From: Erwinia rhapontici
Lineage (GTDB): Bacteria > Pseudomonadota > Gammaproteobacteria > Enterobacterales > Enterobacteriaceae
Direction: 5' to 3'
NCBI RefSeq assembly: GCF_012271765.1
Contig: NZ_VRKO01000016.1
Coordinates: 248,001-312,000, forward strand
DNA length: 64,000 nt
Position numbers and translations under genes: made by a program. Below the pieces are notes generated by a model. That model searched no databases. It had not been told where the DNA came from and saw only the letters and a program-made list of their open reading frames with translations. This document shows positions 12,960-32,930 of this stretch, piece after piece (position 1 is the stretch's first letter; every line of letters starts with the position of its first letter).

Positions 12960-14234
12960 TTACGGATTGGTCACCGGGTCCTGCTCATCAGTCGGGCCTG
13001 CCTCCTCCGGCGGTGACATTGTCGCCCGGCGCAAGGTGCCGACCAGGCTTGCCAGCACCAGCGCTACGCCTGCGGCCACCGCGCCAAATGACAGTACGCT
13101 CACCACTGGCGTAAACAGCTTACCTAACACGCCTAATCCCAGAGCACCGACAGAATCCCCGGTTACATCCTGCGCGGTGCCCAGACTGTTCACGCGACCG
13201 AGCAAAGCGTCAGGGGTATGGTGTTGAATCAGCATATATTGCAGCAGCGAAGCGATCGCGTTGCAGTAGCCATACACCACCAGTGCCAGCAGGGCCGGGA
13301 TAAAGTGGCTGTAAAGCCCCAGTGAGGCAATGGCCAGAAACGCGCAGGTGGCGCTGATCAGGACCAGCACACCTGGACGGGCATAACCCGGTACCCAGCC
13401 GCTGGTAAAGGCGCCAATCATGGCCCCCAGCGGCACGGCGGAATACATCAGACCAATCGCCGAAGCGTCAGCGTGATAGCTGATAGCCAGCGCCGGGAAC
13501 AGAATACGCACCGCGCCGACGATGCTCACCAGCATGCCCAGCAGCACCACGGAACCCACCACCTTCTGCTGGCAGACAAACTGAACGCCGCTGGCCAGGG
13601 CGCGCAGCGGATGCTCCGGCTCCTGCACTTCCGGCTTCATCGACGGCAGACGCACCAGCGGGATTAACGTTGCCAGCGTACCGACAGCCGCCACGGCAAA
13701 GGCCCAGCCCACGCCGCCCGCCACAATAATCACCCCGCCAATGGCCGGGGAGAGGATAGCCCCGAGACGTACGGTCACCATACTCAGCGCACCGGCCGCG
13801 CCGAGGTTCTCACGCCCGACCAGCAGCGGGATCACCGCCATTAATGCCGTCATCCCCAACGCCCCGAAGAAACCGTCCCAGGCGGCCAGCAAATATAGTG
13901 CCCACAAAGAGGGTTCCGGCAGAAACGCATTCAGACTGAGGGCCGCGAAGCCGATGCCGCAGGTACCACGGGCAAACAGAATCAGCTTACGACGATCGAG
14001 GCGGTCTGCGAGGATGCCACCCAGCATCAATCCGATAAACATACCGATGCCATCCAGCATCACGGCCACACCCACCTGAAGCGTGGAGCCTGTCATGGCC
14101 TGGATCTGAATCGGTACGCCGACTGCCAGCATACCGAGTGAGAACACGGACAGCATGCGGGCACAAAAGATGGCGCGGAAATGGGCGTTATTTTTCAGCA
14201 GGCTGAAATCAAGCAGAATGGAGGGCTTTGCCAT
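12960..14234 (-). CDS. entS: Catechol siderophore exporter EntS (MFS)
   Basis: This 424-residue major-facilitator protein has twelve predicted helices and strong local resemblance to E. coli EntS. Examples are LDRRKLILFARGTCGIGFAALSLNAFLPEPSL, GVTALL-like GMTALMAVIPLLVGRENL, TVRLGAILSPAIGG and MLIQHHTPDALLGRVNSL. It exports the finished siderophore across the inner membrane. It is divergent from fepD across a Fur box, as in E. coli. The genes that follow entS in E. coli on the far side (fepB, entCEBAH) are absent; a HigBA pair and a chemoreceptor are found there instead. Confidence 0.93.
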   Translation of the reverse strand: MAKPSILLDFSLLKNNAHFRAIFCARMLSVFSLGMLAVGVPIQIQAMTGSTLQVGVAVMLDGIGMFIGLMLGGILADRLDRRKLILFARGTCGIGFAALSLNAFLPEPSLWALYLLAAWDGFFGALGMTALMAVIPLLVGRENLGAAGALSMVTVRLGAILSPAIGGVIIVAGGVGWAFAVAAVGTLATLIPLVRLPSMKPEVQEPEHPLRALASGVQFVCQQKVVGSVVLLGMLVSIVGAVRILFPALAISYHADASAIGLMYSAVPLGAMIGAFTSGWVPGYARPGVLVLISATCAFLAIASLGLYSHFIPALLALVVYGYCNAIASLLQYMLIQHHTPDALLGRVNSLGTAQDVTGDSVGALGLGVLGKLFTPVVSVLSFGAVAAGVALVLASLVGTLRRATMSPPEEAGPTDEQDPVTNP

Positions 14235-14358
14235 GAGTATCCATGTAGTTAATAGGGCTCAATGCCTGGCGGCCGGAATGCTGTCCGGTGCGGCGCGTAA
14301 GGATGCCGATGTTTTTCTGGCGGGGCGCATGGTAACATATTTGGTTAGTAACGTTAAT

Positions 14359-14377
14359 GATAATAATACTCATATTC
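14359..14377. promoter_or_regulatory. Fur box between entS and fepD
   Basis: The 19-mer GATAATAATACTCATATTC matches the consensus Fur box at 15 of 19 positions by my count. It lies 29 bp before the fepD start and in the divergent gap to entS, so Fe-Fur could repress both. Confidence 0.8.
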
Positions 14378-14405: not shown

Positions 14406-15431
14406 ATGTCATTGCAGCAAGCTTCCCCCCCATCTGCTCCGTTGTCGCAAGGCCTTTCGCGCAGCGCGGGTGTCATCATCTGTCTGATATTACTGACGGC
14501 GGTCAGCCTGGCGAGTCTGATGCTTGGGGCCAAACCCATCGCGCCTGCCCTGGTGTGGCAGAGTCTGTCCGGCCAGATCACTAACGCCGATAGCATCATT
14601 ATTCTCAATGCCCGTCTGCCGCGTACGCTGGCCGGGATCCTCGTAGGCCTGGCGCTGGGCGGCGCAGGGGCGGTGATCCAGGCACTGACGCGTAATCCGC
14701 TGGCAGACCCCGGCATTCTCGGCGTCAATGCCGGGGCCAGCTTCGCGATGGCGATTGGCATTACCCTGTTTGGCGTCAGCGGCATGGCAGGCTGGCTTGG
14801 CTTTGCCTGGGGCGGCGCGCTGATTGCCAGCATGGCGGTCTGGGCGATTGGCACACTGAGCGGTGGCCGGGTCAATCCGGTACGGTTGACGCTGGCCGGG
14901 GTGGCACTGAGTGCGGTATTGGGCGGGCTGACTTCGTCGCTGTCGCTGCTTAATCCGCAGACCTTTGACCAGCTGCGCTTCTGGCAGGCGGGAACGCTGG
15001 ATATCCGTTCCTCAGCGAACCTGATGCTGGTGGCCCCGGCGATAGTCGTCGGCGCGGTGCTGGCACTCGCGGCATCGCGTTCACTGAACAGTCTCAGTAT
15101 GGGTGAAGACATTGCCGCCGCGCTCGGCACCCGGGTGCTGCTGGTGCGCCTGCTGGCGCTGCTGTCGGTGATGCTGCTGTGTGGATCGGCCACGGCGCTG
15201 GTGGGGCCCATTGGTTTTGTTGGCCTGATGGTGCCCCATGTTGCGCGCTGGTGGGTGGGGGCCGACCAGCGCTGGATCCTGATTTATTCGTTTCTCATGG
15301 CCCCGGTGCTGTTGCTGACCGCCGATATTGCCGGGCGTTTTATGGCACAGGGTGAGCTGCGGGTGTCGATTGTCACCGCATTGATCGGTGCGCCAGTCTT
15401 AATCTGGTTAGTCCGTAGCCGCAAACATTAA
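14406..15431 (+). CDS. fepD: Ferric-siderophore ABC permease FepD
   Basis: This 341-residue FecCD/BtuC-family permease has about ten membrane helices. Family motifs include LPRTLAGILVGLALGGAGAVIQALTRNPLADPGILGVNAGAS and GPIGFVGLMVPHVARW. It would form a heterodimer with FepG to move the ferric catechol siderophore from the periplasm. The ATG at 14406 has CAGGG just before it, which is a weak ribosome binding site. fepG starts 10 bp after it. Confidence 0.95.
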   Translation: MSLQQASPPSAPLSQGLSRSAGVIICLILLTAVSLASLMLGAKPIAPALVWQSLSGQITNADSIIILNARLPRTLAGILVGLALGGAGAVIQALTRNPLADPGILGVNAGASFAMAIGITLFGVSGMAGWLGFAWGGALIASMAVWAIGTLSGGRVNPVRLTLAGVALSAVLGGLTSSLSLLNPQTFDQLRFWQAGTLDIRSSANLMLVAPAIVVGAVLALAASRSLNSLSMGEDIAAALGTRVLLVRLLALLSVMLLCGSATALVGPIGFVGLMVPHVARWWVGADQRWILIYSFLMAPVLLLTADIAGRFMAQGELRVSIVTALIGAPVLIWLVRSRKH

Positions 15432-15441
15432 GGATGACAGG

Positions 15442-16476
15442 ATGCACAGTAAAACCTTACTGATCGGCCGTGCTGACGGCTGGCTCAATCTGCGCCTGGC
15501 GTCCCGGGTGCTGTGGGCGAACCTGACGCTGATCGTTCTCGCTGCACTGCTGGCGCTGTTTGCGCTGTGCTACGGCACGCTGAGCATCAGCCCGGGGCAG
15601 GTGTGGCAGGCGTTGCAGGGGGAAGGGCCTCGCGGATTTATGACCGTTATCGCACAGTGGCGTGCACCGCGTGCGGTGATGGCGCTGGTGCTGGGGGCGG
15701 GCCTTGGCGTCAGCGGGGCGATCTTCCAGTCGGCGATCCGCAACCCGCTCGGCAGCCCGGATGTGGTGGGTTTTAATACCGGGGCGTTTACCGGGGCGCT
15801 GGTGATGATTATCGGCTTTGGCGGCAGCTACTATCAGATTGCCGCCGGAGCGCTGGTGGGCGGTATTGGTTCGGCGGCGCTGGTTTATCTGCTGGCGTGG
15901 CGCCAGGGGATTGTGGGTTTCCGCCTGATTATTGTCGGGATTGGCGTGGGCGCGGTGTTGTCGGCGCTCAATACCTGGCTGATTGTCAGCGCCTCGCTGG
16001 AGAGTGCCATGAGTGCTGCGCTGTGGGGGGCGGGATCGCTTAACGGCATCACCTGGGCGAAAGGGCAGCCTGCGCTGCTGCTGGTGCCACTGACCATTAT
16101 GGTGTCGCTGGCGCTCAGCCGCCGTTTGCAACTGATGGAAATGGGCGACGACAGTGCGCGGGCGCTGGGGGTGAATGCTGAGTCCAGCCGTCTGTGGCTG
16201 ATGCTGTGCGGCATTATTCTCACGGCAATTGCCACCGCCAGCGCCGGGCCGATTGCCTTTATTGCGCTGGCCGCGCCGCAGATTGCCCGCCGCCTGACCG
16301 GTGCCAGCGCGGTGCCGCTTTTTTCCGCCGCCACCACCGGGGCGCTGTTGTTGCTGACGGCCGATGTGATCGCTCAGCATGCGTTTAACGGGGTACAACT
16401 GCCGGTGGGGGCTGTTACCGTCAGCATCGGTGGTGTTTATCTCATCTGGTTACTTATCAGGGAGTCACGACGTTGA
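15442..16476 (+). CDS. fepG: Ferric-siderophore ABC permease FepG
   Basis: This 344-residue FecCD-family permease is the partner of FepD. The motifs WRAPRAVMALVLGAGLGVSGAIFQSAIRNPLGSPDVVGFN and AGPIAFIALAAPQIARRL are typical. About nine or ten membrane helices can be seen. It is followed immediately by fepC, whose start is 2 bp after the fepG stop. Confidence 0.95.
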   Translation: MHSKTLLIGRADGWLNLRLASRVLWANLTLIVLAALLALFALCYGTLSISPGQVWQALQGEGPRGFMTVIAQWRAPRAVMALVLGAGLGVSGAIFQSAIRNPLGSPDVVGFNTGAFTGALVMIIGFGGSYYQIAAGALVGGIGSAALVYLLAWRQGIVGFRLIIVGIGVGAVLSALNTWLIVSASLESAMSAALWGAGSLNGITWAKGQPALLLVPLTIMVSLALSRRLQLMEMGDDSARALGVNAESSRLWLMLCGIILTAIATASAGPIAFIALAAPQIARRLTGASAVPLFSAATTGALLLLTADVIAQHAFNGVQLPVGAVTVSIGGVYLIWLLIRESRR

Positions 16477-16478
16477 TC

Positions 16479-17300
16479 ATGGATACTTCTTTATCCCCCC
16501 GTCTTCAGGCCGCTGGCGTGACGCTGGCCTACGATCAAAAAGTGATCGCCAGTGAGCTTAGCGTGCAGATCCCCGACCGCCAGTTTACGGTGATTATTGG
16601 CCCTAACGCCTGCGGCAAGTCAACGCTGTTACGCGCCCTGTGCCGCCTGCTGAAACCGCGTAGCGGGCAGGTGCTGCTTGATGGTCATGATATTCATCAG
16701 ATGGGCACCAAAGCGCTTGCCCGCCAGCTGGGTCTGTTGCCACAGCATGCGATTGTCCCGGAGGGGATCAGCGTGGCCGATCTGGTGGCACGTGGACGCT
16801 ATCCACATCAGAGCTTACTGAAGCAGTGGAGTGAAGCCGACCGTGAGGCGGTGGCGGCGGCAATGCAGGCCACCAACATCAGTGAACTGGCCGCGCGCAG
16901 CGTGGATGAACTGTCCGGCGGCCAGCGTCAGCGCGTGTGGGTGGCGATGGTGCTGGCGCAGCAGACGCCGCTGCTGTTACTGGATGAACCGACCACCTGG
17001 CTGGATATCGCCCACCAGATTGAGCTGCTGGATCTGTTCCGTCAGTTAAATCAGGAGCACGGGCATACGCTGGTGGCGGTGCTGCATGATCTGAATCAGG
17101 CCTGTCGTTACGCCGACCACTTAATCGTGATGAAGGAAGGGCAGATTATCGCCCAGGGTAAACCCGCTGAGATTGTGGATGCACAGCTGGTGCGGCAGGT
17201 GTTTGGCATGAGTAGCGTGGTGATTGACGATCCGGTATCACATACACCGATGATCGTGCCGTGCGGGCGTTATCATCAGCCTTTACAGGGATCGTTGTAG
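16479..17300 (+). CDS. fepC: Ferric-siderophore ABC transporter ATPase FepC
   Basis: This 273-residue ABC ATPase energises FepDG. It has Walker A GPNACGKST (an alanine replaces the usual glycine of GPNGCGKST), signature LSGGQRQR, Walker B LLLLDEPT and the switch histidine in VLHDLNQACRYA. The conserved stretch VARGRYPHQSLL also matches the FepC/FecE class. The ATG at 16479 is used; TTG at 16473 is possible but would overlap the fepG stop. The stop codon runs into the first unit of a tandem palindromic repeat, and there is no separate terminator. Confidence 0.94.
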   Translation: MDTSLSPRLQAAGVTLAYDQKVIASELSVQIPDRQFTVIIGPNACGKSTLLRALCRLLKPRSGQVLLDGHDIHQMGTKALARQLGLLPQHAIVPEGISVADLVARGRYPHQSLLKQWSEADREAVAAAMQATNISELAARSVDELSGGQRQRVWVAMVLAQQTPLLLLDEPTTWLDIAHQIELLDLFRQLNQEHGHTLVAVLHDLNQACRYADHLIVMKEGQIIAQGKPAEIVDAQLVRQVFGMSSVVIDDPVSHTPMIVPCGRYHQPLQGSL

Positions 17301-17561: not shown

Positions 17562-20500
17562 TTACGCCAGGTCCTGGCACGCCTCCATCAGCCCAGCCAG
17601 CAATGGCCCCAGCGTCACCAGCGTTTCCGGTGACAGGATATCCATATGCTCGCAGGCCAGTTCGTGGATCTGCACTTGCTGAAGATAAGGCGCCCAGCTG
17701 TCTTTCACATCCATTCCCTCAGGCAGGGTATTTTTCGCCACAAACAGCGTGGCCTGCCCTTCAAAGCGTGGTGTCCTGGCGGTACTCAGGCGCTCAACCG
17801 CATCGGCATAGTTTGCGACGATAGTGCTGAACATTTCCGCCTTCTCTGCCAGTAACAGCGCATCGTCATCAGTGGAGGCCATAAACTCGGCCTCCTCGCG
17901 CGCCACTTCGGCACGCGCATCCTCTTCCGACGGGCTGGTCCAGTCCTGGCCTTCCGGCGGATAGGTATCCAGCAGCCCGAGGAAGTTCACCTGTTCTCCC
18001 TGCTGTTGCAAACGTGCCGCAATACCGTGGGCGAGGGTGCCGCCCAGCGAGTAGCCCAGTAAGTGATACGGACCGTGCGGCTGAATGCTGCGCAGCGTCG
18101 CCAGATGGCGTTCGCACATTTCATCCACACTTGCGCAGCGGGCAATCACGCCGTTCGGGCGTGGCGATTGCAGGCCAACAATCGGGAAATTGCCCCCGAG
18201 ATGACGCATCATGCCGGAGTACTGCCAGGCAAAGCCGGAAGCCGGGTGAATACAGAACAGCACCGGTCCTGTACCGCTGCGGAACGGCAGGCTTTCGCCG
18301 TTGGCACGGTTGTCCGCGTTCACGCCACGCGCGCTGTCATCCAGCAGGCGTGCCATGTTTTCGACGCTACGTGCGGCCATGATCTGCCCGATAGAGAGCG
18401 GTTGTGGCAGGCGACGGCGCAGCTCGGCGGCCAGGCGCATCGCCAGCAGCGAGTGCCCCCCCAGCGCGAAGAAGTCATCATCGGCATAGACCGTGTCACG
18501 CGCCAGCAGGCTGGAGAACAAGGTCACCAGCAGTTGCTCATGCAGGCCCTGTGCGGGACGACCTTCAGACTGCGGCGTCTGCGGCAACGGCAGGGACTTA
18601 CGGTCCAGCTTGCCGTTAGCGCTGAGCGGGAAGTGGTCCGTCAGCACATAGCTGACGGGCAGCATATGCGCCGGTAAGCGCTGTGCCACTTGCTGATGCA
18701 CAACGGCGGTATCCAGTGTGACACCGGGCTGTGCGATCAGCCACGCCACCAGCTGACGCGCATCGGCACCCACGGATGCCACACTGCCCAGTTCACGGGC
18801 GGCCACAACGGTCTGTGCCACGCCATCAACGGTTAACAATGCCTGTTCAATTTCGCCCAGCTCAATACGCTGCCCACGAATTTTCAGCTGATCGTCACTG
18901 CGTCCCAGATACTCAACGGCCCCGTTCTCCAGCCAGCGGGCAATGTCCCCGGTACGGTACATCCGTTCACCGTCGGCAAACGGGTCGGCGACGAAGCGTT
19001 GCGACGTCAGGTCGGCGCGATACAGATAGCCGTCTGCCAGCTGCACGCCGCACAGGTAGAGATCGCCCGCCACGCCGAGCGGCACCGGGCGCAGCAGCCC
19101 GTCGAGGATGCGCAGTTCCGTGTTCCACACCGGGTAACCAATCGGCACGCCTGCGCCGCTGCATTGTCGCAAGCTTTCGCCGCTGGCCGGATGGTATGTG
19201 ACATCAACGGCGGCTTCGGTTGGGCCATAGAGGTTGTGCAGCGGTGCCGCGATCAGCGCCTCATAGCTGGCGGCCAGATCGCAGGAGAGGGCTTCACCGC
19301 TACAGAACACGCGTTGCAGGCTGTGGCACCCTTTGTCGCTGCCATCACGGCTTTCCAGCGCGGTGACCCACGCGGCGAGCATCGAAGGCACAAAGTGCAT
19401 TGTCGTCACGGAATAATCTTCAATCAGCTGTACCAGCGCATCCGGATCGCGATGGGCTTCCGGCGGAGCCATCAGTAACTGAGCACCGACCATCAGCGGC
19501 CAGAAGAACTCCCACACGGAGACGTCGAAGCTGCACGGTGTTTTCTGCAACACCACGTCATTCGCCTCCATCGGGTATTCATCCTGCATCCACCACAGGC
19601 GGTTAACAATCGCCTGCTGACCGACCACCACGCCTTTCGGGCGCCCGGTCGATCCGGAGGTATACAGCACATACGCCGGACGCTGTGGATCGGCGGCAGG
19701 CAACGGATGCGTCGGCTGACGCTGTTCGTCTTCCAGCCGATCAAAGGCCAGAATCGGCCCCATCACTGCAAAGCGTGCGGCTAAGGTGCTTTCACTGATA
19801 ATCAGGCGTGGACGGGAGTCCTCCACCATCAGCGCAAGACGGTCGTCCGGATAACCGGTATCCAGCGGCAGCCAGGCGGCACCGGCCTGTAGAATGGCGG
19901 TCAGTGCCAGGCTCAGGCGTACCGAACGCGGCAGGGCAACGGCAACGATATCACCCGGTTGTACCCCGGCCTCAATCAGACGGTCGGCCAGCAGACGTGC
20001 CTGCTGCTGCATCTGGCGATAGGTCAGACGATGCTCGCTGTCCAGCAGGGCCAGCGCGTCTGGCGTGCGGTTAACCTGCTGTTCAATGGCCCCTTGCAGC
20101 GTGCCTGCGGCCACCGGGTAAGCGGTGTTATTGATGCTGGCAATCAGCGCCTGTTCGTCAGGGGTTTGCAGCTGCCAGCGTGCCAGCGGCAGGTCGGGCT
20201 GCGCCACCAACTGGGCAATCAGCATCAGCAGGCGCTCAGCAAAGCGTTGCGGATGTGGCACCGCATCGCGGTACTCCATCAGCAGATGCAGACGCTCACC
20301 CGGCAGCACCAGCAGGGTAAGCGGATAGTGGGTGTAACCCCGGTTGCTGATATGGTCGCAGCGCAGGCCATTGTGGCCCTGCAACAGGTCGGCGTTGTCC
20401 GGGTAGTTTTCCACCACCAGCAGGGTGTCAAACAGCGTACCGCTGCCGGCCAGCTGTTGGATCTCACCCAGGCCGAGATCGTCATGTTCGATCAGCTGGA

Positions 20501-23500
20501 TCTGCTGAGCCTGGTGATCGGCCAACTGATCGAGTAGCGGACGCTGGCTGTCGAAACGCACGCGCACAGGCAGGGTGTTACTGAACAGGCCAACGTGCTG
20601 CTCCTGGCCGTCAATCTGGCCGAAGCGACCGGAAACCGGTGAACCAAACACCACGTCCTGGTGGCCGCTTTCAATCGCCAGCTGCATTCCCCAGATGCCC
20701 TGCATCACGCTGTTCAGCGTCAGGCCCCGGCTGCGGCACAGTGCCAGCAGGCCGCGTTCCAGATCGGGTTCCAGTACCAGGTCCAGGTCGTGCACCGGAC
20801 CGTTATGGGTATCGTCACCAAACAGCAGCGTGGGACGCAAATCCTGCAACACCTGTTGCCACAGCTGGCGGGAGGCGTTGGCATCACGCGAGGTTAACTG
20901 ACGCACGATATCCGCGTAGCTGAAGCGGTGCGGCGTCAGGGCCTGCGGGCCGTGGTACAGCGCGGTAAACAGATCGCCTAAGATCACCGGCGTTGACCAG
21001 CCATCCACCACCAGGTGATGGGCATTCAGCATCAGTGTAAAGCGCTCGCTGTCAGCATGCTGCACCAGCAGTGCATGCAGCATCACCGGCTGGCTGAACA
21101 GATCCCGTGCCAGCTCGCGTTTCTCCAGCGCCAGTAACGCCTCGGTTTCTTCAGCGGCTGACAGGGCAGGGAGTACGTGGCGATCCAGCGTCCAGAGCGA
21201 CTGTTCCTGCGGGAGAGCCGGGATCAGTTGTAACGGCTGTAGCGCCTGTTCACTGTCAAAGCGGGCCGCCAGCTGCGGATGGTGACGGACCACCGCATCC
21301 AGTGCGGCACGCAGGCGATTCTCATCCAGCGCACCGCTAAAGCTCAGGCGCGTCAGTGAGTTATAGCTGCCGCTGCTGTCGGCGGTGGCGGCATGGAACA
21401 GCAACCCTTTTTGCAGCGGTAGCAGCGGCAGAACAGCGGCCAGCGGGCCATGACGCTCACCCAGCTGAACGACATCCTGCTGGCTGACTCCGTCAATGGC
21501 GACCTCGGCGGCCACTAAGGTATCCGCCGCTTCCTGTGGATGACGATGGGCGAAATCGCTCAGCGCATCGCAGGCACCGGCCAGCGCCAGGTGCAGGGCA
21601 TCAATATCCTGCTCGCTGAATACCCCATTCAGCCAGCCCCAGTTAACCGCCAGCTGCGGCAGCGCGCCGGTTTCATCCACGAAGATATTAATTTCCAGGC
21701 TGTGCAGCTGCGGCATGTCAGGTGACTGATGTACCGCAAAGGCATCGCGGAAATGTTTACGCGTCCGCTGTGGCGTCCACAGGCCCTCTGCGGCACTGAA
21801 ACGCCCGAGGTAGTTAAACAGCACTTCCGGCGCATGCTGCTGTGCCAGCGGCTGTAACTGGGTGGAACGCACCGCATCGAGATAGCGCAGCTGGCCGTAG
21901 CCAACGCCACGATCCGGCACGGCACGCAGCACACTTTTGACCGCGCGCAGGGCATCGCGCAGGCTGCCGCTATCGCCTTCATCCAGCGTGACCAGCAACG
22001 GGTACTCTGCGGTCAGCCAGCCAACGGTGCGGGCCAAATCATGGTCACCCGCCAGTTCGGCGCGGCCATGCGATTCCAGGGTGTAGCGCAGCTGGCTGAC
22101 CTTAAAGCGGTCGATCAGCGCCAGTGACAGTGCGCACAGCAGCGTCTCTTCCACGCTGGCACGATACTGCTGCGGCAGCGTGCTCAGCAGCGCCTGGGTC
22201 TGCGCCCCGTCGAGCAGCGTACGCTTCTCTTTCAGTTCGCTGTGGGTATCCTGCGGATGCAGCGCCCGCTGGCCGAGCAGCGGCACCGGATGCTGCAACA
22301 TGCTCTGCCAGAAAGGCAGCTCAGCGGCACGACGGGAGACGTTGCTTAACAGCGCAGCGGACCAGTCATGCAGTGATGTCTCTTCCGGCGGCAGGGTCAG
22401 CGGGGTGCCGCTGATGGCGGCCTCCGCTGCCTGACGCAGTTCATCCAGCAGTACACGCCAGGACACACCGTCCACCACCAGGTGATGGATCACCAGCACC
22501 AGGCCAAAGGCCCGCTCGTTCTGCTGGAGCAGCGTGGCCTGCATCATCACGCCGTTCTCCGGGTCGAGGCGGGTGACGGCGGCGTCGAAGGCATCTTCTG
22601 CGCAGGCTTCCGGGGCATCATGCAGCGGCTGGGCGGTGACCCAGCGGGTAAATCCGGCAGGACGAGGTTCACCCACCACCAGCTGCCCGTCACGGGTAAA
22701 GGCGGCCAGCGCCGGGTGTGCGCGGCTCAGCGTGGTCAGTGCCTGCTCAAGGTGAGCACGCTGCAATGCCTCAGGGACCTGCAGGAACACGCCGTGCGCA
22801 AAGCGCTGATTAATGCCGCCATGTTCGTTAAACCATTGCAGGATGGGTAAGCCGCTGATGGCACCGTGCTGCGCCACGTTATTGACGGCGGTGCGGGTGG
22901 TCAGCAGGGGCATATTTTGTGCCATACGTGCCGGGGTACGCTGGGCGAAGATATCGCGCGGACGCAGCAGATAACCCGCACGGCGGGCGGCCGTGCCCAG
23001 CCCCATCGCGGAAATACTGTCCCCGCCCAGCGCGAAGAAATCATCGTCAGCGCCGACGCGTTCCATTCCCAGCAGGTCAGCAACGGCCTGGCAGATCAGG
23101 GTTTCCTGTGCGCCCTGCGGCTCGCGTCCGGGTTTAAATGCCACCTGCTGCGGCTCAGGCAGGGCCTGGCGGTCAATTTTGCCGTTCACGTTCAGCGGCA
23201 GTTCATCCATCACCACCAGGATTGCGGGCACCATGTAGTCGGGCAGGGTGACTGCCAGTTTCGCCAGCAGTTTTGCGGATAACTGATCGTCGGCACGCAG
23301 GGCATCGTCATACACCGAGCAGTAGCCAATCAGGCGGTTGGTGGCACCGATAGGCTGAGCAATCACCACGGCGGTGCTGACCTCATCCAGCGCCACCAGC
23401 GCATTTTCCACTTCGCCCAGCTCAATACGGAAACCACGCACCTTGATCTGGTGGTCAACGCGGCCGATAAAGGCCAGCTGACCATCGCTGCGCCAGCGCA

Positions 23501-26102
23501 TCAGATCGCCGCTGCGGTACATCACTTCCCCCTCCAGGAACGGGTTAGCGACAAAACGCGCGGCGGTCAGATCCGGGCGACGCAGGTAGCCACGGGCAAT
23601 CCCGGTACCGGAAATGTACAGCTCGCCCACACAGCCGACCGGAACCGGACGCAGTTTGCTGTCCAGCAGCCACACCTGGGTGTTACCGACCGGGCGGCCA
23701 ATCACCGGCTGGTCAGAGACCATCACGCTGGCACCCAGGGTATCGATGGTGTACTCAGACGGGCCGTAATAGTTATGGATCTCCAGCTCCGGGTGCTGCT
23801 GCATCAGCTTCCACAGCGTTGGCGTCGCCGCCTCACCGCCGATCATCACAAACGCCGGACGATGGCTTTCCGGCTCAAACAGTCCGGCATCAATCATCTG
23901 TGAGAAGAAGGACGGGGTGATATCCAGCAGGTCAACCGGCACCTGTTTCATCTTCTGCAACAGCGCCCAGGCATCGCGGCGCAGTTCTTCGTCGAAGATA
24001 TTCAGCTCGCAGCCCATCATCATGCAGAACAGCGGTTCCCATGAGGAGTCGAAAGAGAAGGAGGCGGTGTGTCCGGTGCGCATACGGCGCGGCTGGCTGC
24101 GATGGAAGCGCTCAATCGCCGGGCCGAACAGGTTAGCCTGATGGGAAAGAAACAGGTTGAGCAGTCCGGCGTGAGTACTCATCACGCCTTTCGGGCGCCC
24201 GGTGGAACCGGAGGTGTAGATCATATACGCCAGGTGTTCACCACGCTGGGCAACACGGCGCTCGCTGTCGCTCACCGGGGTGGCAACGTGCGCATCACAG
24301 ACGGCCCGTACGGCAGCATCATCAATACAGAGATACTCACCGTCCGGCATCTGGGCCACGGTGCTGCTGTGCGTCAGCAGCAGCTGCGGTTGCGCGTCAT
24401 CGCACATCAGCGCCAGACGCTCACGCGGGTAGTCGAGGTCCAGCGGCATATAGGCGGCACCGCTGGCCAGCACACCGAAGATCGCCACCAGCGAATCAAC
24501 GGAGCGCGGGATACCAATAGCCACCACGTCTTCGGCACCCAGGCCGCGCGCAATCAGCTCGCGAGCCAGCTGCATGGCACGGGCAGAAAGCTGGCCGTAG
24601 GTCAGGCTGATATCGCCGCAGGCCACGGCGACCGCATCCGGCTGCGCGTCCACCTGGCGCTGTAACATTGCCAGAATCGACACCACACCTTCCGGCGGCG
24701 TGACGCTGATCCCCTGAGACCAGCGGGCAATTTGCTGCTGTTCATCGTCGGCAATCAGCGCCAGGCGGGAGAGCGCTTGCTGTGGCTGCTGCGCCAGCTG
24801 GTTTGCCAGGAACGCAATGCGTTCACCGTGCCAGGCCAGCGTTTGCGCATCATATTTCTCGGCGTTGGCGACCAGCGTGACCTGCAACTGGCCGCGCTGG
24901 AAGCCGATTTCAAACTCCAGATCGTCGACCGGGCCCATCGCCAGGGTGTGGCTGATGGCATCAATGCCGTCAAAGGACAGACTGTCGTGATAGACCTTCA
25001 GGTTGATCACCGGGCCATACAGCGACTGGCTGCTGCCGACCAGACCAAGGTCACGGCGCAGTTGTTCTGCCTCGTAACGTTGATGGCGGCGAACCTGTTT
25101 AATCTCGCTCTGTAAGGCGCGGCTGATATCGGCCAGCGTCATGCTGTCTTCAATATCCAGCAGCAGCGGCAGAACGTTGACGACCGGGCCGGTGGCGGCC
25201 AGCGCGGCGGAACCCATGCGGCGCATAAACGGGAAACCAATGCTCAGGCGGGATTCACCGCTGATGCGTGCCAGATAGGCGACCAGCAGGGCGCTGGCAA
25301 TTTCTGCCGGGGCGTTCTCCTGCAAACCGGGCTGAAGGGTCAGCGCCGCCAGCAGCGCCGGGGGCAGGGTCACCTGTTGTTTTAACGGTGCGCCGTGGGC
25401 GCTGGCGGGGAAGGTTTCGCTGGAGAGTGAAATTGCCGTCGGGAAGTGCTCTGCGTGCTGTTGCCAGAACAGGGCGGCACGTTCACAGGCGGGTGAATGC
25501 TGCCAGGCCTGATACTCAGCGACCACTTCGCCAAAGGAGATAAACGGCGATGCCGCCGGTGTTTCACCCGCACGCAACGCCTGATAGATCGCTGCCACGC
25601 GGCGTGTCAGGGCCTCAAAGCTGAAGCCGTCGAGCATCAGATGGTGGTAGCGCTGATACCAGAACCAGCGATCGTCACTCACGCGGATCATCAGCTGGCG
25701 GTACAGCGGGCGGGCACCGTCTGCGGGCAGATCGGCGGCCAGATCGGCCTGCATCAGGTCGTGCGCGGCCTGCACGGCATCGCTGCGTGGGCTGAAATCA
25801 ACCCATTCAACAGGCTGTACCTGTTCTGGGGTACGCGTATGAGGGAGTCGCTGCACGGCGCTGCCGTCATCAGAGAGGCCAAAGGTGGCCTGCACGGTAT
25901 CGGCTTCGGACATCGCCTGGCGGATCGCTCTATCCAGCATCGGGCGGTCAATATCGCCATGCAGTTCACTGTAGTGGGCAACGGCAAAGGTGTTTCTTGC
26001 GCTGGCGATCTGATCGGCGATCCAGATCCCCGGCTGCGCCGCAACCAGCGGATATTCGGTAAATTCGGCCTGTATTTCAGGCATGATCTGAGCTTCTGAC
26101 AC
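17562..26102 (-). CDS. Two-module siderophore NRPS (C-A-T-E-C-A-T-TE), EntF/CbsF/VabF-like
   Basis: This synthetase has 2846 residues; E. coli EntF has about 1290. Domains in order, with approximate residues: C1 (HHLMLDG, 154); A1 ([11 protein letters not shown], 631); T1 (GGDSI, 1027); E ([10 protein letters not shown], 1206; [23 protein letters not shown]); C2 (HHLVVDGWS, 1696); A2 (FDVSVWE, 2194); T2 (GGHSL, 2548); TE (GYSLGG, 2685; EHMD, 2818). The A2 pocket reads DVWHFSLVD, the serine code. The A1 pocket has aspartates at the positions equivalent to 278 and 331, which suggests a basic amino acid. The E domain has all seven core motifs, so the first residue should become D. GTG at 26102 (AGGA 9 bases upstream) is chosen over ATG at 26084. 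Expected product: cyclic trimer or fragments of DHB-D-(Lys/Arg/Orn)-L-Ser. Confidence 0.93.
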
Positions 26103-26176: not shown

Positions 26177-26389
26177 CTAACCTGCCGTTTTCAGCACGGC
26201 GGGGCGCATGTCGTGCCAGTTTTCTTCGATGTAACGAATACATTCGGCGCGGGTATCCGGGCCGCTCACGGCCTTCCAGCCAGCAGGAACGTCGGAAAAC
26301 GCTGGCCACAGGCTGTATTGCTGGCGTGCATTGAGCAGCACCAGGAAGTCGAGGGTTTCATCGTCGAAGGGATTTTGTTGTTCGGTCAT
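26177..26389 (-). CDS. ybdZ: MbtH-like protein (YbdZ)
   Basis: This 70-residue protein has the MbtH signature: [26 protein letters not shown], then VPAGW and the C-terminal [11 protein letters not shown]. MbtH-like proteins bind adenylation domains of NRPSs and are often needed for their activity. The reading frame is open upstream, but the family N terminus ([11 protein letters not shown]) fixes the start at 26389, 1 bp after the fes stop. Confidence 0.95.
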
Positions 26390-26390
26390 G

Positions 26391-27740
26391 TTAATTACCT
26401 GTCTTTCCAGAATAGGGAGGTGTAATAAAGTCGGCGAGTAGCCAGCGTAAGCCGTCCAGCAGCCCGCCGCGCCAGCACAGGGCATCATGCCCGCCGGAGA
26501 AAATTCGGAAATTAATGTCATGCCCGCCCGGGAGCAGCGCCTGACGCATCTGTTGGTTAACCCAGGCCATATCGGCTTCGCGATCGCCCGCTTCCTGGAA
26601 GATCTTTAAGCGGCTGGCCGGCAGTACACCCTTGATCGCCTGCCCGGTCAGCCAGCCCATCTCCTGCTCACCGGCTTCGGAAAAGTGGGTGACCAGGCGG
26701 ACGTTTGGCCACCAGAAGGAGCCAGACTGGCTGAGGATGCGGCCAAAGCGCCCGGGCCAGTGCAGCCCGGCATACATCGCCGCCAGGCCGCCGTAACTTT
26801 GCCCGGCGACCACGGTACGGTCGGCCTCTTCACTGAATTCCACACGGCTGCGCGCCAGCGGCAGCAATTCCTGCTGCACCGCCTGCCAGAATTCAGCATT
26901 GCAGGGCAGCTCTTTTTCGCGCCAGTCACCGTTAATCACATCAATCAACAGCCAGCAGGCGGCGGGCAGATGGCCGCTGTCGGTTTCGGCATGCAGCGCG
27001 GAATAAAGCGGTTGTCCGTCTGCCCAGTTCTGTCCATCCAGCAGAATCACCAGCGGGCGCTGCTCTGGGATCGCTGTACTGCCCGTGGTATAGAGCCAGA
27101 TACGGCGCTGATTCCCCAGCAGGGCGCTGTCCCAGGTAAATTGTTGCAGCTGGTGGTTATCGGGGTGTATCGGCTGTCCGCTGTCCAGCGCGTGCCACGC
27201 AGACTGGTCCGGCGCCGCGGGCATATGCGCGGCCGACAGCGCGTGCCCGCGGCTGTTGAGGTGGGCACAGCTGCGATTTAACGGGTCGGCAATCGCCAGC
27301 GGGAACAGAGATATCCACCATTCGCGCTGTTGTTTGCGGCGTGTGTCGTCATCGGTGCTAAAAGTGGGGGGGAGTTGCTCAGCGTTTACCGGGATCAGGC
27401 TGTAACTGCCACGCCAGTGCTCATCAATCTCCGTTGACCAGTGCCAGACATCGGTTCCCGCCAGGCGTTGCAAACTTTGCGGCTGCGGGCTGTGGTGGTC
27501 GGTCACGCAGTTAATATCCACATAAACCTGATGTATTGCAGAGCGGGTTTCGTCACCTGCCGGGTCACGCCAGAAATAGTTCATCCGGACTGTTCCTTCA
27601 GCAAAGGCTTCAACCAGTGGCGTGCCATGTTGCGCAATGTGCTGCCACCAGCTCTCTTCACCCACGTTATCGGCGGCCAGCAGCTGTGCTGCATGACCTG
27701 CGGGCTGACGCATCGGCCATAATGTGTGCCGTGTTGTCAC
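26391..27740 (-). CDS. fes: Ferric-siderophore esterase Fes
   Basis: This 449-residue protein has the Fes N-terminal domain (YVDINCVTDHHSPQPQSLQRLAGTDVWHWSTEI) and an esterase domain. The nucleophile is in VVAGQSYGGLAAMYAGLHWPGRFG and the histidine in GGHDALCWRGGL. Fes hydrolyses the tri-serine lactone of the imported ferric siderophore in the cytoplasm, which releases iron. Its presence suggests that the product made by the two-module NRPS is cyclised or an oligo-ester of serine. The protein is longer than E. coli Fes (about 400), mainly by a short N-terminal extension. Confidence 0.93.
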   Translation of the reverse strand: MTTRHTLWPMRQPAGHAAQLLAADNVGEESWWQHIAQHGTPLVEAFAEGTVRMNYFWRDPAGDETRSAIHQVYVDINCVTDHHSPQPQSLQRLAGTDVWHWSTEIDEHWRGSYSLIPVNAEQLPPTFSTDDDTRRKQQREWWISLFPLAIADPLNRSCAHLNSRGHALSAAHMPAAPDQSAWHALDSGQPIHPDNHQLQQFTWDSALLGNQRRIWLYTTGSTAIPEQRPLVILLDGQNWADGQPLYSALHAETDSGHLPAACWLLIDVINGDWREKELPCNAEFWQAVQQELLPLARSRVEFSEEADRTVVAGQSYGGLAAMYAGLHWPGRFGRILSQSGSFWWPNVRLVTHFSEAGEQEMGWLTGQAIKGVLPASRLKIFQEAGDREADMAWVNQQMRQALLPGGHDINFRIFSGGHDALCWRGGLLDGLRWLLADFITPPYSGKTGN

Positions 27741-28047: not shown

Positions 28048-30237
28048 ATGTTTAATAAGATTAAAAAACAGGCATCACCAGGCATTGCAGTTCGTTCAGA
28101 CAAACACACCCTGCGTTTATTACTGGCTTCAACCCTGCTGATGGCGCCCGCCGTGCAGGCAGCCACCGAAGCCGAAAATACGCTGACGGTCACCGCAGAC
28201 ACCCAGGAAAGCGTCACCGCCCCGACCAAAGGGATCGTAGCGAAAGAGAGCGCTTCAGGCACCAAGACCGCCACACCGCTGCGTAAAACCCCGCAATCCA
28301 TTTCTGTGGTGACGCGCGATCAGATGGACGATCAGGATGCTCGCTCAGTGGCTGATGCACTGAGTTACTCCAGTGGCGTGGTAGCAACCTACCGTGGAAA
28401 CTCGAACCGTAATGATGAAGTGATCAGCCGTGGTTTCCGTTATGCACCAAAATTGCTGGATGGATTACATTTCGGTCTTTCTTCTGAGAATGGCGGGGCT
28501 GGGCAACTCGACCCATGGTTGCTTGAGCGTGTTGAAATCGTACATGGCCCGGCATCGGTACTTTATGGCCAGGTGAGCCCTGGTGGGCTGGTTCTGATGA
28601 CCAGTAAGCGCCCGACAGCAGAAAGTATTCATGAAGTGCAACTCAGCACCGGTAATCGCCACTATGGTGAGGCAGCGGTGGACTTCGGCGGCAAGCTGAA
28701 CGATGACAACACCTTGTTCTACCGCCTGAACGGCATTGCCAGCACCCAGAATGAGTTTGTGAAAAACAGCAAACAACAGCGTATGGCGATTGCGCCAGCG
28801 ATCACCTGGCTGCCAAATGAAGACACCAGCTTTACGCTGTTAACCAGCTACCAGAATGACCCGAAAGCGGGTTCGCGTAACTTCTTGCCACGCGCAGGTA
28901 CGCTCTATTCTACCGCTGCTGGCTATGTTCCTTATGACCTGAACGTCAGCGACTCTGACTTTACTAAGTCAAAGCGTGAACAGACCTCTATCGGTTACAG
29001 CCTGGAGCACAGCTTTAATGAAGCGGTATCGTTTACCCAGAACCTGCGTTACAGCCACCGCAATGAAGACTACAAATATCTGGTCTACAACGTGGATGAC
29101 GGCAACCGTACACTGACGCGTCTGGCGCAGCATGAAACGGCGATGACTAACGAATTCAACGTCGACAATCAGTTGAAAGGGCTATTCGATACCGGTGAAG
29201 TGAAGCATACCGTGCTGGGCGGTTTCGATTACCGCTACTCGCATATTGATAGCAAACTGTATCGTGACTACGGCAGCAGTTACCCGATGGACTGGAGCAA
29301 CCCGAGCCGTGTAGAGGTTGATGAAAGTTTGTTGGAGCTGGCCACCCATACCAAGAAATCCCTGAACCAGTACGGTGTGTATGTCCAGGATCAGCTGGAG
29401 TGGAATAACTGGAACCTGCTGCTGTCAGGTCGTAATGACTGGTCGCAGGTGAGCAACAAGGACCTCACAGCCGGGGGTTCAGATATCACTTATAATGACA
29501 GCGCGTTCACAGGGCGTGCCGGACTGCTGTATGCATTCGATAACGGTATTTCACCGTATGTCAGCTACAGCACCTCGTTTGAACCGGTGCTGGAGCAGGC
29601 GGCGGCAGGTGCCGATCCGCTGAAACCGACCACCGGTGAACAGACGGAAATCGGGGTGAAATTCCAGCCAGTGGGCGTGAATGCGATGATGACAGTCTCC
29701 TGGTTTGATATTAACCAGAAGAACGTCACCTCTTATAACCGTCTGACCAGTGCTTACGAGCAGATTGGTAAGGTCAACTCTCAGGGTATTGAGACAGAAC
29801 TTCATGTGCAGCCAACGCCGGAAATTAAGCTGACTACCGCTTATACCTATACCGATGTGGTGACCAAGAGCTCAACAGATCCGGATAAAGTCGGTCACAG
29901 CCCAAATGCTATCCCGCGTCATGCTGCTTCAGCCTGGGGTAGTTACAGCTTCCTTGATGGTGTGCTGAATGGTTTGACTGTGGGTACCGGCGTTCGTTAT
30001 GTGGGTAAAGCTCCGGGTGATGATATCGGCGAATACTATGTGCCGCATTACACCCTGTACGATGCGATGGTGAAATATGAACTGGGCCAGGCTGTCCCGA
30101 CTCTGAAAGGGACCACCTTACAGTTCAATGCGCAGAACCTGACGGATGAGCACTATGTGTCATCTTGTGCGGGTCAGTGGGCATGTTTCTACGGTGCAGG
30201 CCGTACGTTTGTTGCTTCTGTTAATTACCGCTGGTAA
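28048..30237 (+). CDS. TonB-dependent siderophore receptor 1 (FhuA/Fct-like)
   Basis: This 729-residue outer-membrane receptor has a signal peptide (cleavage near AVQAA) and the TonB box ENTLTVTA. The plug domain follows ([36 protein letters not shown] ... [19 protein letters not shown]). A 22-strand barrel ends in ASVNYRW with a terminal tryptophan. It belongs to the FhuA/FoxA-type siderophore receptors, not the FepA type. The Dickeya ferric-chrysobactin receptor Fct is also FhuA-like, and this gene occupies the fepA position opposite fes. It is therefore the probable receptor for the peptide-catechol siderophore. The C-terminal barrel has a disulfide-like pair ([10 protein letters not shown]). 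Confidence 0.93.
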
Positions 30238-30661: not shown

Positions 30662-30688
30662 GCCAATCAGTAAATCTAATGGGTTGGC
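30662..30688 (+). other. Conserved leader hairpin of receptor gene 2
   Basis: GCCAAT pairs with GTTGGC (one T-G wobble) at the same distance from the start codon as in receptor gene 1. The loop sequence differs but the stem is retained. Confidence 0.42.
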
Positions 30689-30743
30689 GGGCTTTACTGG
30701 TTTCTTTCGTAGACAAGGCTGTTTCAGACGAGATAACACAACT

Positions 30744-32930
30744 ATGTTGAAGAAGATAAAAACCCAGGCGCGCCCTGGTGTGGCAGTACACTCTGGAAAT
30801 ACCACCCTGCGCCTGTTGCTGGCGTCTTCACTGCTGGCGGCGCCGCTGGCGCAGTCCGCCACTGACAACACGCTGACGGTGACGGCGGAGTCCCAGGAGA
30901 GCGTGACGGGGCGAAACAGTGGTATTGTGGCGAAAGAGAGCGCTTCAGGCACCAAAACCCCCACCCCGCTGCGCAAAACCCCGCAATCGATTTCGGTGGT
31001 GACACGCGAGCAGATGGATGACCAGGCGGCAGCATCGGTTTCCGATGCCCTCAGTTATACCAGCGGTGTGGTGACCAACTATCGCGGTAACTCCAACCGT
31101 AACGACGAAATTATCAGCCGTGGCTTCCGCTACGCGCCAAAACTGCTGGATGGTCTGCACTTTGGTCTTTCCAGCTCCAGCGGGGGAGCCGGGCAGGTTG
31201 ACCCGTGGTTGCTGGAGCGCGTGGAGATGGTCCATGGCCCTGCAGGGGTGTTATACGGCCAGGTCAGCCCGGGTGGCCTGGTGATCATGACCAGCAAGCG
31301 CCCGACGGCTGAAGCCGTTCGCGAAGTGCAGCTCAGCACCGGCAATCATCATCTGGGCGAAGCGGCCTTTGATTTTGGCGGTAAGCTGAACGATGACAAC
31401 ACGCTGTTTTATCGTCTGAACGGTATTGCCAGCACCAGACATGAAGAAGTGAAAAACAATAAACAGGAACGCGTGGCAATAGCGCCCGCCATCACCTGGC
31501 TGCCGAATGCCGATACCAGCTTTACCCTGTTAACCAGCTACCAGAACGACCCGAAAGCCGGATCGCGTAACTTCCTGCCGATGGTCGGGACGTTGAAAGA
31601 AGCCAGCACCGGGTATATCCCGTATGACCTGAATATCAACGACCCGAACTACTATGGTAACAAGCGCGAACAGGCTTCCATTGGCTACGAATTTGACCAC
31701 AGCTTCAATGAAACGCTGTCGTTTACCCAGAACCTGCGCTATACCCATCGTGATGAAGACTATAAATATATGGTCTACACCACCAGCTCCGACCTCAACG
31801 ACCACACCATTGAACGTCGCCCGCAACATGAAACGGTGATGACGAACGAATTCGGTGTCGATAACCACCTCAAAGGGCTGTTTGATACCGGTGATGTCGG
31901 CCATACCGTGCTCGGTGGGCTGGATTATCGCTGGAGCCGCGTTGCCAGCACCCTGTCACGCCATACCTCGACCCAGTACCAGCTCGACTGGGCAAATCCT
32001 GGTCGTGTTGATGTGAATGAGGATGATTTTACCCCCAGCATTAACACCGTGAAGCAGCTGCATCAGGTTGGGGTCTACCTGCAGGATCAGATGGAGTGGA
32101 ATAACTGGAACCTGGTCCTGTCCGGCCGCAACGACTGGTCGCAGATCCGCACGATTAACCGCCTGAACGGTACGGATGTGAAGAACAATGACAGCGCCTT
32201 TACCGGCCGTGCCGGGCTGTTGTACGCCTTCGATAACGGTCTGTCGCCGTACATCAGTTACAGCACCTCGTTTGAACCGAACCTGAGCAATGGCGCACCG
32301 GGAACCGATCCGTTTAAGCCGACAACAGGGGAGCAGACCGAAGTGGGGGTGAAATACCAGCCGCCGGGTTCCAATACCGTGATGACCGTGTCGGTGTTTG
32401 ATATTACTCAGAAAAATATCACCTCGGCGAATACGGTGACCGGTTACAACGAGCAGATCGGGAAGGTTGACTCTAACGGCGTGGAAATGGAAGTGCATGC
32501 CCAGCCGTTGCCGGAAGTCAAACTGATGGCGGCTTATACCTATACCGATGCGGTGACAAAAGAGACTTACACAACCGCTCAACTTGGACGTACCCCTGCC
32601 AGCATTCCGCGTCATGCGGCATCGGCCTGGGGCAGCTACAGCTTCCTGAATGGGGCTCTGAGTGGGCTGACCGTAGGTACGGGTGTGCGTTACACCGGTG
32701 ATGCCCCGGCGGACAGCACCGGAACCAACGAAGTGCCGCACTTCACGCTGTACGATGCGATGGCAAAATATGAACTGGGCGAGGCGGTTTCCAGCCTGAA
32801 AGGCACCACGGTTCAACTGAATGTGCAGAACCTGACCGACAAGCACTATGTGGCATCCTGTAGCAACAGCGAAGCCTGTTTCTATGGTTCAGGCCGCAAT
32901 GTGGTGGCATCGGTGAACTATCGCTGGTAA
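30744..32930 (+). CDS. TonB-dependent siderophore receptor 2 (FhuA/Fct-like paralogue)
   Basis: This 728-residue paralogue of receptor 1 has the same architecture: signal peptide, TonB box DNTLTVTA, plug with [19 protein letters not shown], barrel and a C-terminal VASVNYRW. The start at 30744 aligns with that of receptor 1 ([15 protein letters not shown]); a further upstream ATG has no family support. The two proteins agree over most of the plug and differ most in the outer loops (for example around the YDLN and NRLNGTDV regions). This fits different ligand forms, such as monomer versus cyclic trimer. It has its own promoter and terminator. Confidence 0.93.

Follow-up and report, generated by a model that had tools for sequence, protein, structure and literature searches.

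What kind of siderophore is built by the large non-ribosomal peptide synthetase (NRPS) of Erwinia rhapontici that lies between fes-ybdZ and fepCGD, a position that we take to be the entF slot of the Escherichia coli gene order? The gene belongs to a 64,000-nucleotide stretch of contig NZ_VRKO01000016.1 (positions 248,001 to 312,000; assembly GCF_012271765.1), here called the window and numbered from its first letter. A first-pass annotation, made from the sequence alone, had read it as a replacement of EntF by a two-module synthetase for a siderophore of dihydroxybenzoate (DHB), a D-amino acid and L-serine (L-Ser), possibly with a new residue or as a new diastereomer. As judged from sequence comparison, the gene is very probably the Erwinia orthologue of cbsF and would encode the synthetase of chrysobactin or trichrysobactin (DHB-D-Lys-L-Ser, with Lys for lysine). 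No positive evidence was found for either kind of novelty, D-Lys being that of a known product (chrysobactin/trichrysobactin), and the locus is a well-supported further example of a known system, with no new chemistry. Published work is cited below by PMC identifier.

The gene runs on the minus strand from a GTG start at 26102 down to 17562, in 2846 codons without an internal stop; the span proposed at first was exact, and the strand is the minus strand. A Pfam scan of the product finds three Condensation-superfamily stretches, two AMP-binding domains, two PP-binding domains and one Thioesterase domain. Together with position and motifs, these give in a single protein of 2846 amino acids (aa) the order of condensation (C), adenylation (A), carrier (T), epimerization (E) and thioesterase (TE) domains that had been claimed, C1-A1-T1-E-C2-A2-T2-TE, the three Condensation-superfamily stretches being C1, E and C2. 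Pfam and motif evidence places the starter condensation domain C1, which is expected to accept DHB from EntB, at 24723..26063, C2 at 20148..21437, the carrier domains T1 (GGDSISAMG) and T2 (GGHSLLAMR) at 22917..23111 and 18333..18551, and TE (GYSLGG), a domain for release or oligomerisation, at 17583..18275. A1 occupies 23148..24695, A2 18588..20120 and E 21513..22871, all on the minus strand like the gene itself. Full-length identity is 87.8% to the E. persicina orthologue and 65.0% and 65.1% to those of Dickeya oryzae and D. undicola, respectively, which together with the Pfam domains marks the gene as a cbsF-type dimodular NRPS. The nearest named loci are those of E. persicina (two records), Erwinia sp. 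JUb26, E. aphidicola, 'Pantoea coffeiphila', E. piriflorinigrans and one uncultured Erwinia sp. The top NCBIfam match is the EntF equivalog PRK10252, with a score of 1922 bits where the cut-off is 2400, and by that measure the protein is not EntF, which is a single C-A-T-TE module matching PRK10252 over its full length; here there are two modules plus an E domain.

The amino acid codes of the two adenylation domains point to Lys and Ser. In what we take to be GrsA numbering, A1 has Asp at the equivalents of positions 278 and 331 and Ile at 330, as the first-pass annotation had stated, within the code DSWDMGYIDK. Among 49 named CbsF-like loci (L073-L121), 37 have exactly this code. The two Dickeya orthologues are among the 37, and the comparison with CbsF that had been proposed, run on D. 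oryzae and D. undicola, returned identical codes. Among the other 12 loci, five have V for I330, four Yersinia loci have F for Y322, one has two changes, one is cut short and one has no usable frame. FreF of Yersinia frederiksenii ATCC 33641 (L103), with the code DSWDMGFIDK, is one residue away from the A1 of the window, and Marfey analysis found L-Lys in the FreF product (PMC8480324). The serine code read for A2 is also found: DVWHFSLVDK, which two EntF proteins from this bacterial family also have, is the Ser code of TnbF module 2 and of the enterobactin synthetase (PMC3795760). In a tree of A1 domains (37 rows, bootstrap not fully settled), the window groups with E. persicina. Both belong to a clade of 21 rows (support 100/99) that also includes the Dickeya CbsF orthologues and FreF, which uses Lys; EntF and the A2 of the window make up a separate clade. 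A1 is thus found in a Lys-type clade and not among non-basic specificities, and the earlier reading of a basic residue (Arg, Lys or Orn, the first being arginine and the last ornithine) is sharpened by code and tree to the Lys type. A1 is predicted to select L-Lys and A2 to select L-Ser.

The other two basic residues are to be weighed against this prediction. An A1 that activates L-Arg, with a vanchrobactin-like product DHB-D-Arg-L-Ser, would be served equally well by the two pocket aspartates, since these fit any basic residue, and the E-bearing arrangement is also that of the vanchrobactin synthetase. Arg specificity was contrasted with a single sequence, the probable Y. ruckeri synthetase L162, VabF lying outside the set compared; the product of L162 we take to contain L-Arg. 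Its A1 adjoins the Lys clade, just outside the 21 rows, where its long branch is weakly supported (82/64), but its code, DAWDAGLVDK, differs from that of the window at four of ten positions, whereas the window code equals that of the CbsF-type enzymes and is a single change away from that of FreF. From this contrast we rate activation of Arg as very unlikely. L-Orn is one carbon apart from Lys, and turnerbactin is a known siderophore that combines Orn, DHB and Ser (PMC3795760), so that a D-Orn relative of turnerbactin could be imagined as the product. The Orn code of TnbF module 1 is DSDDGGLVDK, however, published as matching the CbsF code at 60% (PMC3795760), and it equals the window code at only six of ten positions; TnbF moreover has no E domain, which is present here. 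We consider an Orn product highly improbable. That the mapping of code positions is sound was checked by these same comparisons, because A2 returns the published Ser code and the six of ten matches to TnbF equal the published 60%. A class-wide genome search at E 1e-200, aimed at Vibrio and Teredinibacter, matched only the window's own genome (1/369).

The supply of DHB is encoded elsewhere in the genome. An intact entCEBA set lies together on the minus strand of another contig than the NRPS (G000:C8; L039 6564-10993). EntE and EntA score above their NCBIfam cut-offs; the best NCBIfam match of EntC, PRK15016, is below its cut-off, but EntC scores above the cut-off of the isochorismate synthase subfamily, and EntB, with no NCBIfam match at 1e-40, was assigned from position and sequence. 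The genome holds in this way the DHB synthesis and the aryl carrier protein that a CbsF-type pathway requires, and it has three genes with phosphopantetheinyl-transferase family matches, one barely at the cut-off. A search of the genome with PF00668 finds three Condensation-family domains, all within the window NRPS, and a protein search agrees. These data bear on the idea that the strain makes enterobactin, with the window NRPS as an accessory: entCEBA, fes, entS and fepDGC are all of the enterobactin type, but the search of the assembly, a draft of 19 contigs rated 100% complete, brought up no condensation domain outside the window NRPS, so that EntF is absent from this assembly. Of the alternatives considered, this one is extremely unlikely.

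The D configuration of the Lys depends on the E domain. Five motif stretches were checked, FNYLG among them, and all are intact, so that the claim of seven intact E motifs holds for these five. Among 80 named loci, E is detectable in 67; nine have long frames without it (five of them in Yersinia) and four are fragments. The motifs are nearly invariant in the 67 E-bearing relatives, with HHxxxDG in 65, E-x-HGR in 67 and NYLG in 67. Typing of C2 as a D- or L-acceptor was set aside as non-discriminating, because C2 of TnbF groups with the D-acceptors although the product is L (PMC3795760).

Several observations weigh against the assignment to cbsF. The entCEBA genes are separate from the NRPS locus, and one Erwinia genome (G022) has EntB without a dimodular or EntF-type synthetase. 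The published Dickeya strains EC16 and 3937 are outside the sample, where congeners substitute for them. Chromobacterium violaceum makes a D-Lys cyclic trichrysobactin (PMC13251462). The Chromobacterium loci compared are those of C. subtsugae (L149) and C. sphagni (L150), with C. violaceum itself left out; both have the A1 code DGLDMGFISK, and the 21-row clade does not include C. subtsugae. The code may have drifted there while the substrate stayed unchanged, and in principle the reverse could also occur. Of the six domains measured, E has the highest ratio of non-synonymous to synonymous substitutions (dN/dS) in each of five comparisons with relatives (0.143, 0.172, 0.233, 0.271 and 0.380, against 0.041-0.272 for the other five domains), and it is the least conserved domain in eight of 13 comparisons with E-bearing relatives, tied with C1 in two and with C1 lower in three. 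These last figures would suit a silent E domain, which would leave the L-Lys form, frederiksenibactin, as the product, and FreF-type enzymes without E do exist in Yersinia. Against this stand the intact motifs and dN/dS values of 0.14-0.38, well under 1, although the ratios are only rough since some dS values exceed 1. E is the least constrained of the six domains yet clearly constrained, under purifying selection, and loss of epimerization seems to us highly unlikely. The Arg reading, weighed against the probable Y. ruckeri enzyme, and the Orn, silent E and enterobactin readings are rejected on the evidence given for each. The earlier logic of DHB-D-(basic residue)-L-Ser is supported, as are the basic-residue A1, the intact E domain and the kinship with CbsF.

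Taken as a cbsF orthologue, the gene suggests the following pathway. EntC, EntB and EntA would make DHB, which EntE would load on EntB; A1 would activate L-Lys on T1, C1 would join DHB to Lys, and E would epimerise the Lys to the D form. A2 would place L-Ser on T2, C2 would join DHB-D-Lys to L-Ser, and TE would either free chrysobactin or build the tri-ester, as linear or cyclic trichrysobactin. Because fes adjoins the NRPS gene, we lean towards the formation of ester-linked oligomers; monomer, linear trimer and cyclic trimer cannot be told apart from sequence. EntS would export the product, one or both Fct-like receptors with FepDGC would return the ferric form, and Fes would help to free the iron. 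The Lys substrate, the D configuration and all transport steps are what we infer from these comparisons.

The notion that EntF is replaced is correct for the position relative to E. coli, but in Erwinia itself the two systems are arranged differently. Neighbours were inspected in 26 of the 80 named loci. The order entCEB-receptor-fes-ybdZ-NRPS-fepCGD-entS is found in Dickeya, Prodigiosinella, Lonsdalea and Brenneria, and X. bovienii agrees; the Erwinia loci match this order over the part that their stretches cover, with no entCEB in the stretch. fepC comes after the NRPS in 16 of the 26 loci. entS follows the NRPS directly, without fepCGD, in the loci of Serratia marcescens, Pantoea, Enterobacter, Mixta, X. 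hominickii and Enterobacteriaceae B14, and in Y. massiliensis entS after the NRPS is followed by entCE. In four Erwinia genomes that have EntF but lack a dimodular NRPS, the order is ybdZ-entF-entS-entCEBA, and fepDGC was not detected within the 20-kb stretch; fes precedes ybdZ in three of the four, and none was detected in the fourth (G009). A further genome, G024, has this same EntF cluster, with fes, plus a dimodular NRPS elsewhere. In-place replacement of EntF within Erwinia is rejected on these grounds, the EntF genomes differing in cluster order and G024 having both types separately; the likeness to the E. coli entF slot is a matter of general architecture, and the two Erwinia systems are separate clusters, not alleles.

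Among 37 Erwinia genomes, ten have a dimodular relative (one as fragments, one in two frames), five have EntF and one has both. EntB is present in 15, of which 14 carry a dimodular or EntF-type NRPS, compared with none of the 22 others (Fisher p 2.5e-9, uncorrected for kinship and with the genomes sorted by hand from the complete genome list of the match table). The exception is G022, whose EntB (88% identity; G022:C2:517424-518275) belongs to a DHB operon without the usual synthetase, in a genome with a single-module Ser NRPS. That type of protein, of 1321-1349 aa and with a Ser-type code in the eight copies compared (L027, L029-L035; the G022 copy included), occurs in other Erwinia genomes and not in the window's genome. 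It was left out of the count of catechol synthetases because identity to C1 reaches only 22-24% in the C domains of the eight copies (24% in G022), compared with 41-46% for the C domain of EntF.

The genes around the synthetase are those named in the first-pass annotation, in the order fes-ybdZ-NRPS-fepCGD, with entS lying beyond fepD. On the minus strand, ybdZ (26177..26389) encodes an MbtH-like protein of 70 aa, identified by reading its sequence, and a homologue stands beside the NRPS in 26 of 26 named loci examined; fes (26391..27740, minus) encodes a ferric siderophore esterase that matches NCBIfam PRK10439 with 579 bits against a cut-off of 222. The transporter genes lie on the plus strand: fepC (16473..17300; ABC transporter ATPase, whose best NCBIfam match, PRK10253, is below its cut-off), and the permease genes fepG (15442..16476) and fepD (14406..15431), above the cut-offs of PRK10440 and PRK10441, respectively. 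entS (12960..14234, minus), for the siderophore exporter, is above the cut-off of PRK10489. A scan with a 19-base sequence that we take as the Fur-box consensus gave its best result in the whole window in the divergent entS/fepD gap, where two overlapping 15/19 matches form a Fur-box-like site (14353..14377). The fes/rec1 gap has no convincing Fur box, with a best match of 12/19, a score reached by 75 strand-positions in the window and exceeded by 25. A search for periplasmic binding proteins found 13 family members in the genome, none of them inside the window.

Divergent from fes lie two tandem TonB-dependent receptor genes of the FhuA/FoxA type, both on the plus strand. The first, rec1 (28048..30237), occupies what is presumably the fepA slot of E. 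coli and was recognised as Fct-like by position and similarity, sharing 62-63% identity with the receptors that adjoin cbsF in two Dickeya. The second, rec2 (30684..32930), is a tandem paralogue with 70.7% identity to rec1, and the Dickeya receptors beside cbsF have 62-64% identity to both. In a receptor tree of 24 rows, the rec1 and rec2 types form two supported groups. Both types are present in E. persicina and P. coffeiphila; within the stretches examined, Erwinia sp. JUb26 has the rec2 type alone, E. aphidicola and E. piriflorinigrans have the rec1 type alone, and the single receptor of S. marcescens groups with the rec1 type. According to the tree, the split predates the Erwinia species examined, or one type was acquired. 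A division of ligands between the two receptors, for instance with monomeric or linear forms going to one and cyclic trichrysobactin to the other, or with the strain's own D-Lys forms kept apart from foreign L-Lys ones, is a speculation that we hold to be rather unlikely. If true, one Erwinia strain would sort siderophore relatives by size or chirality at the outer membrane. The rec1-rec2 pair offers a natural system in which the stereochemistry of uptake can be tested.

Copies of the synthetase also occur in other settings. In E. aphidicola JCM 21238 (L076; also G003:C18:36587-45131) the frame is split into frames of 2390 and 549 aa in the assembly, and an 83-kb E. aphidicola plasmid (NZ_CP142295.1 42478-45681) carries a copy that is 85.6% identical over C1-A1. 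Related plasmid-borne copies are found in Pantoea and Serratia grimesii, which suggests horizontal spread of the locus. About 4 kb past the end of the window (G000:C4:315594-330500; L009 9595-18822, L043 1856-8438) lies another cluster, whose genes, read by eye, encode an aryl-AMP ligase-like protein, a type II thioesterase-like protein, an SbnA-like pyridoxal phosphate enzyme, a flavin adenine dinucleotide oxidase, a one-module polyketide synthase, an amino-acid dehydrogenase-like protein, a TonB receptor, a binding protein and a pump of the major facilitator superfamily. From this gene content it is probably the ros cluster of E. rhapontici and E. persicina, for the pink pigment proferrorosamine. 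The ros cluster is described in PMC9650351, and all E. persicina and E. rhapontici strains studied there carry ros genes; a ros-like cluster here fits that species group.

The assignment to cbsF places a chrysobactin-type pathway on the E. persicina side of Erwinia, encoded by the sole NRPS with condensation domains found in the genome; it gives a concrete prediction of D-Lys and maps one more instance in which a siderophore locus lies apart from its DHB operon. Chrysobactin/trichrysobactin clusters have been predicted in E. rhapontici 1SR (61% similarity by antiSMASH; PMC13188922), E. phyllosphaerae ZX-13 (53%; PMC12735078), and E. sorbitola (PMC9978198); a Serratia strain has values of 46% and 38% (PMC10651056). 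Among the papers listed in the literature searches, which covered few subscription journals, no measured chrysobactin from E. persicina, E. rhapontici or another Erwinia was seen.

Set beside the known systems, the window NRPS resembles EntF in its position beside fes-ybdZ and in related C1 (41-46%), A2 (61-65%) and TE (47-54%) domains, but EntF has one module without E and, in Erwinia, the order ybdZ-entF-entS-entCEBA. FreF has a related C1-A1, the Lys code with one change and fes, ybdZ, fepCGD and entS nearby; it differs in that it lacks the E domain and yields an L-Lys product (PMC8480324). The viobactin (cyclic trichrysobactin) synthetase of C. violaceum has the same architecture with E and a D-Lys product (PMC13251462), whereas its relative in C. 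subtsugae has 54.0% full-length identity, the A1 code DGLDMGFISK and no Fct-like receptor detected in the stretch examined. S. marcescens 106R has the same architecture, 67.0% full-length identity and the order receptor-fes-ybdZ-NRPS, and differs by V for I330 in its code, by entS after the NRPS without fepCGD in the stretch and by a single rec1-type receptor. CbsF-like synthetases of S. marcescens are described in Db10, as cluster two with 64% to the chrysobactin synthetase (PMC4117218), and in SM6, as EG355_08745 (PMC6498229); the parts of these two articles available report no product for them. In Dickeya, where chrysobactin and cyclic trichrysobactin are known (PMC8480324), CbsF has the domain order with E, the identical A1 code in two orthologues, 65% full-length identity and the same neighbour order; entCEB lies beside the receptor there, while entCEBA is on another contig in E. 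rhapontici, and the single receptor of the Dickeya stretches stands against the two found here.

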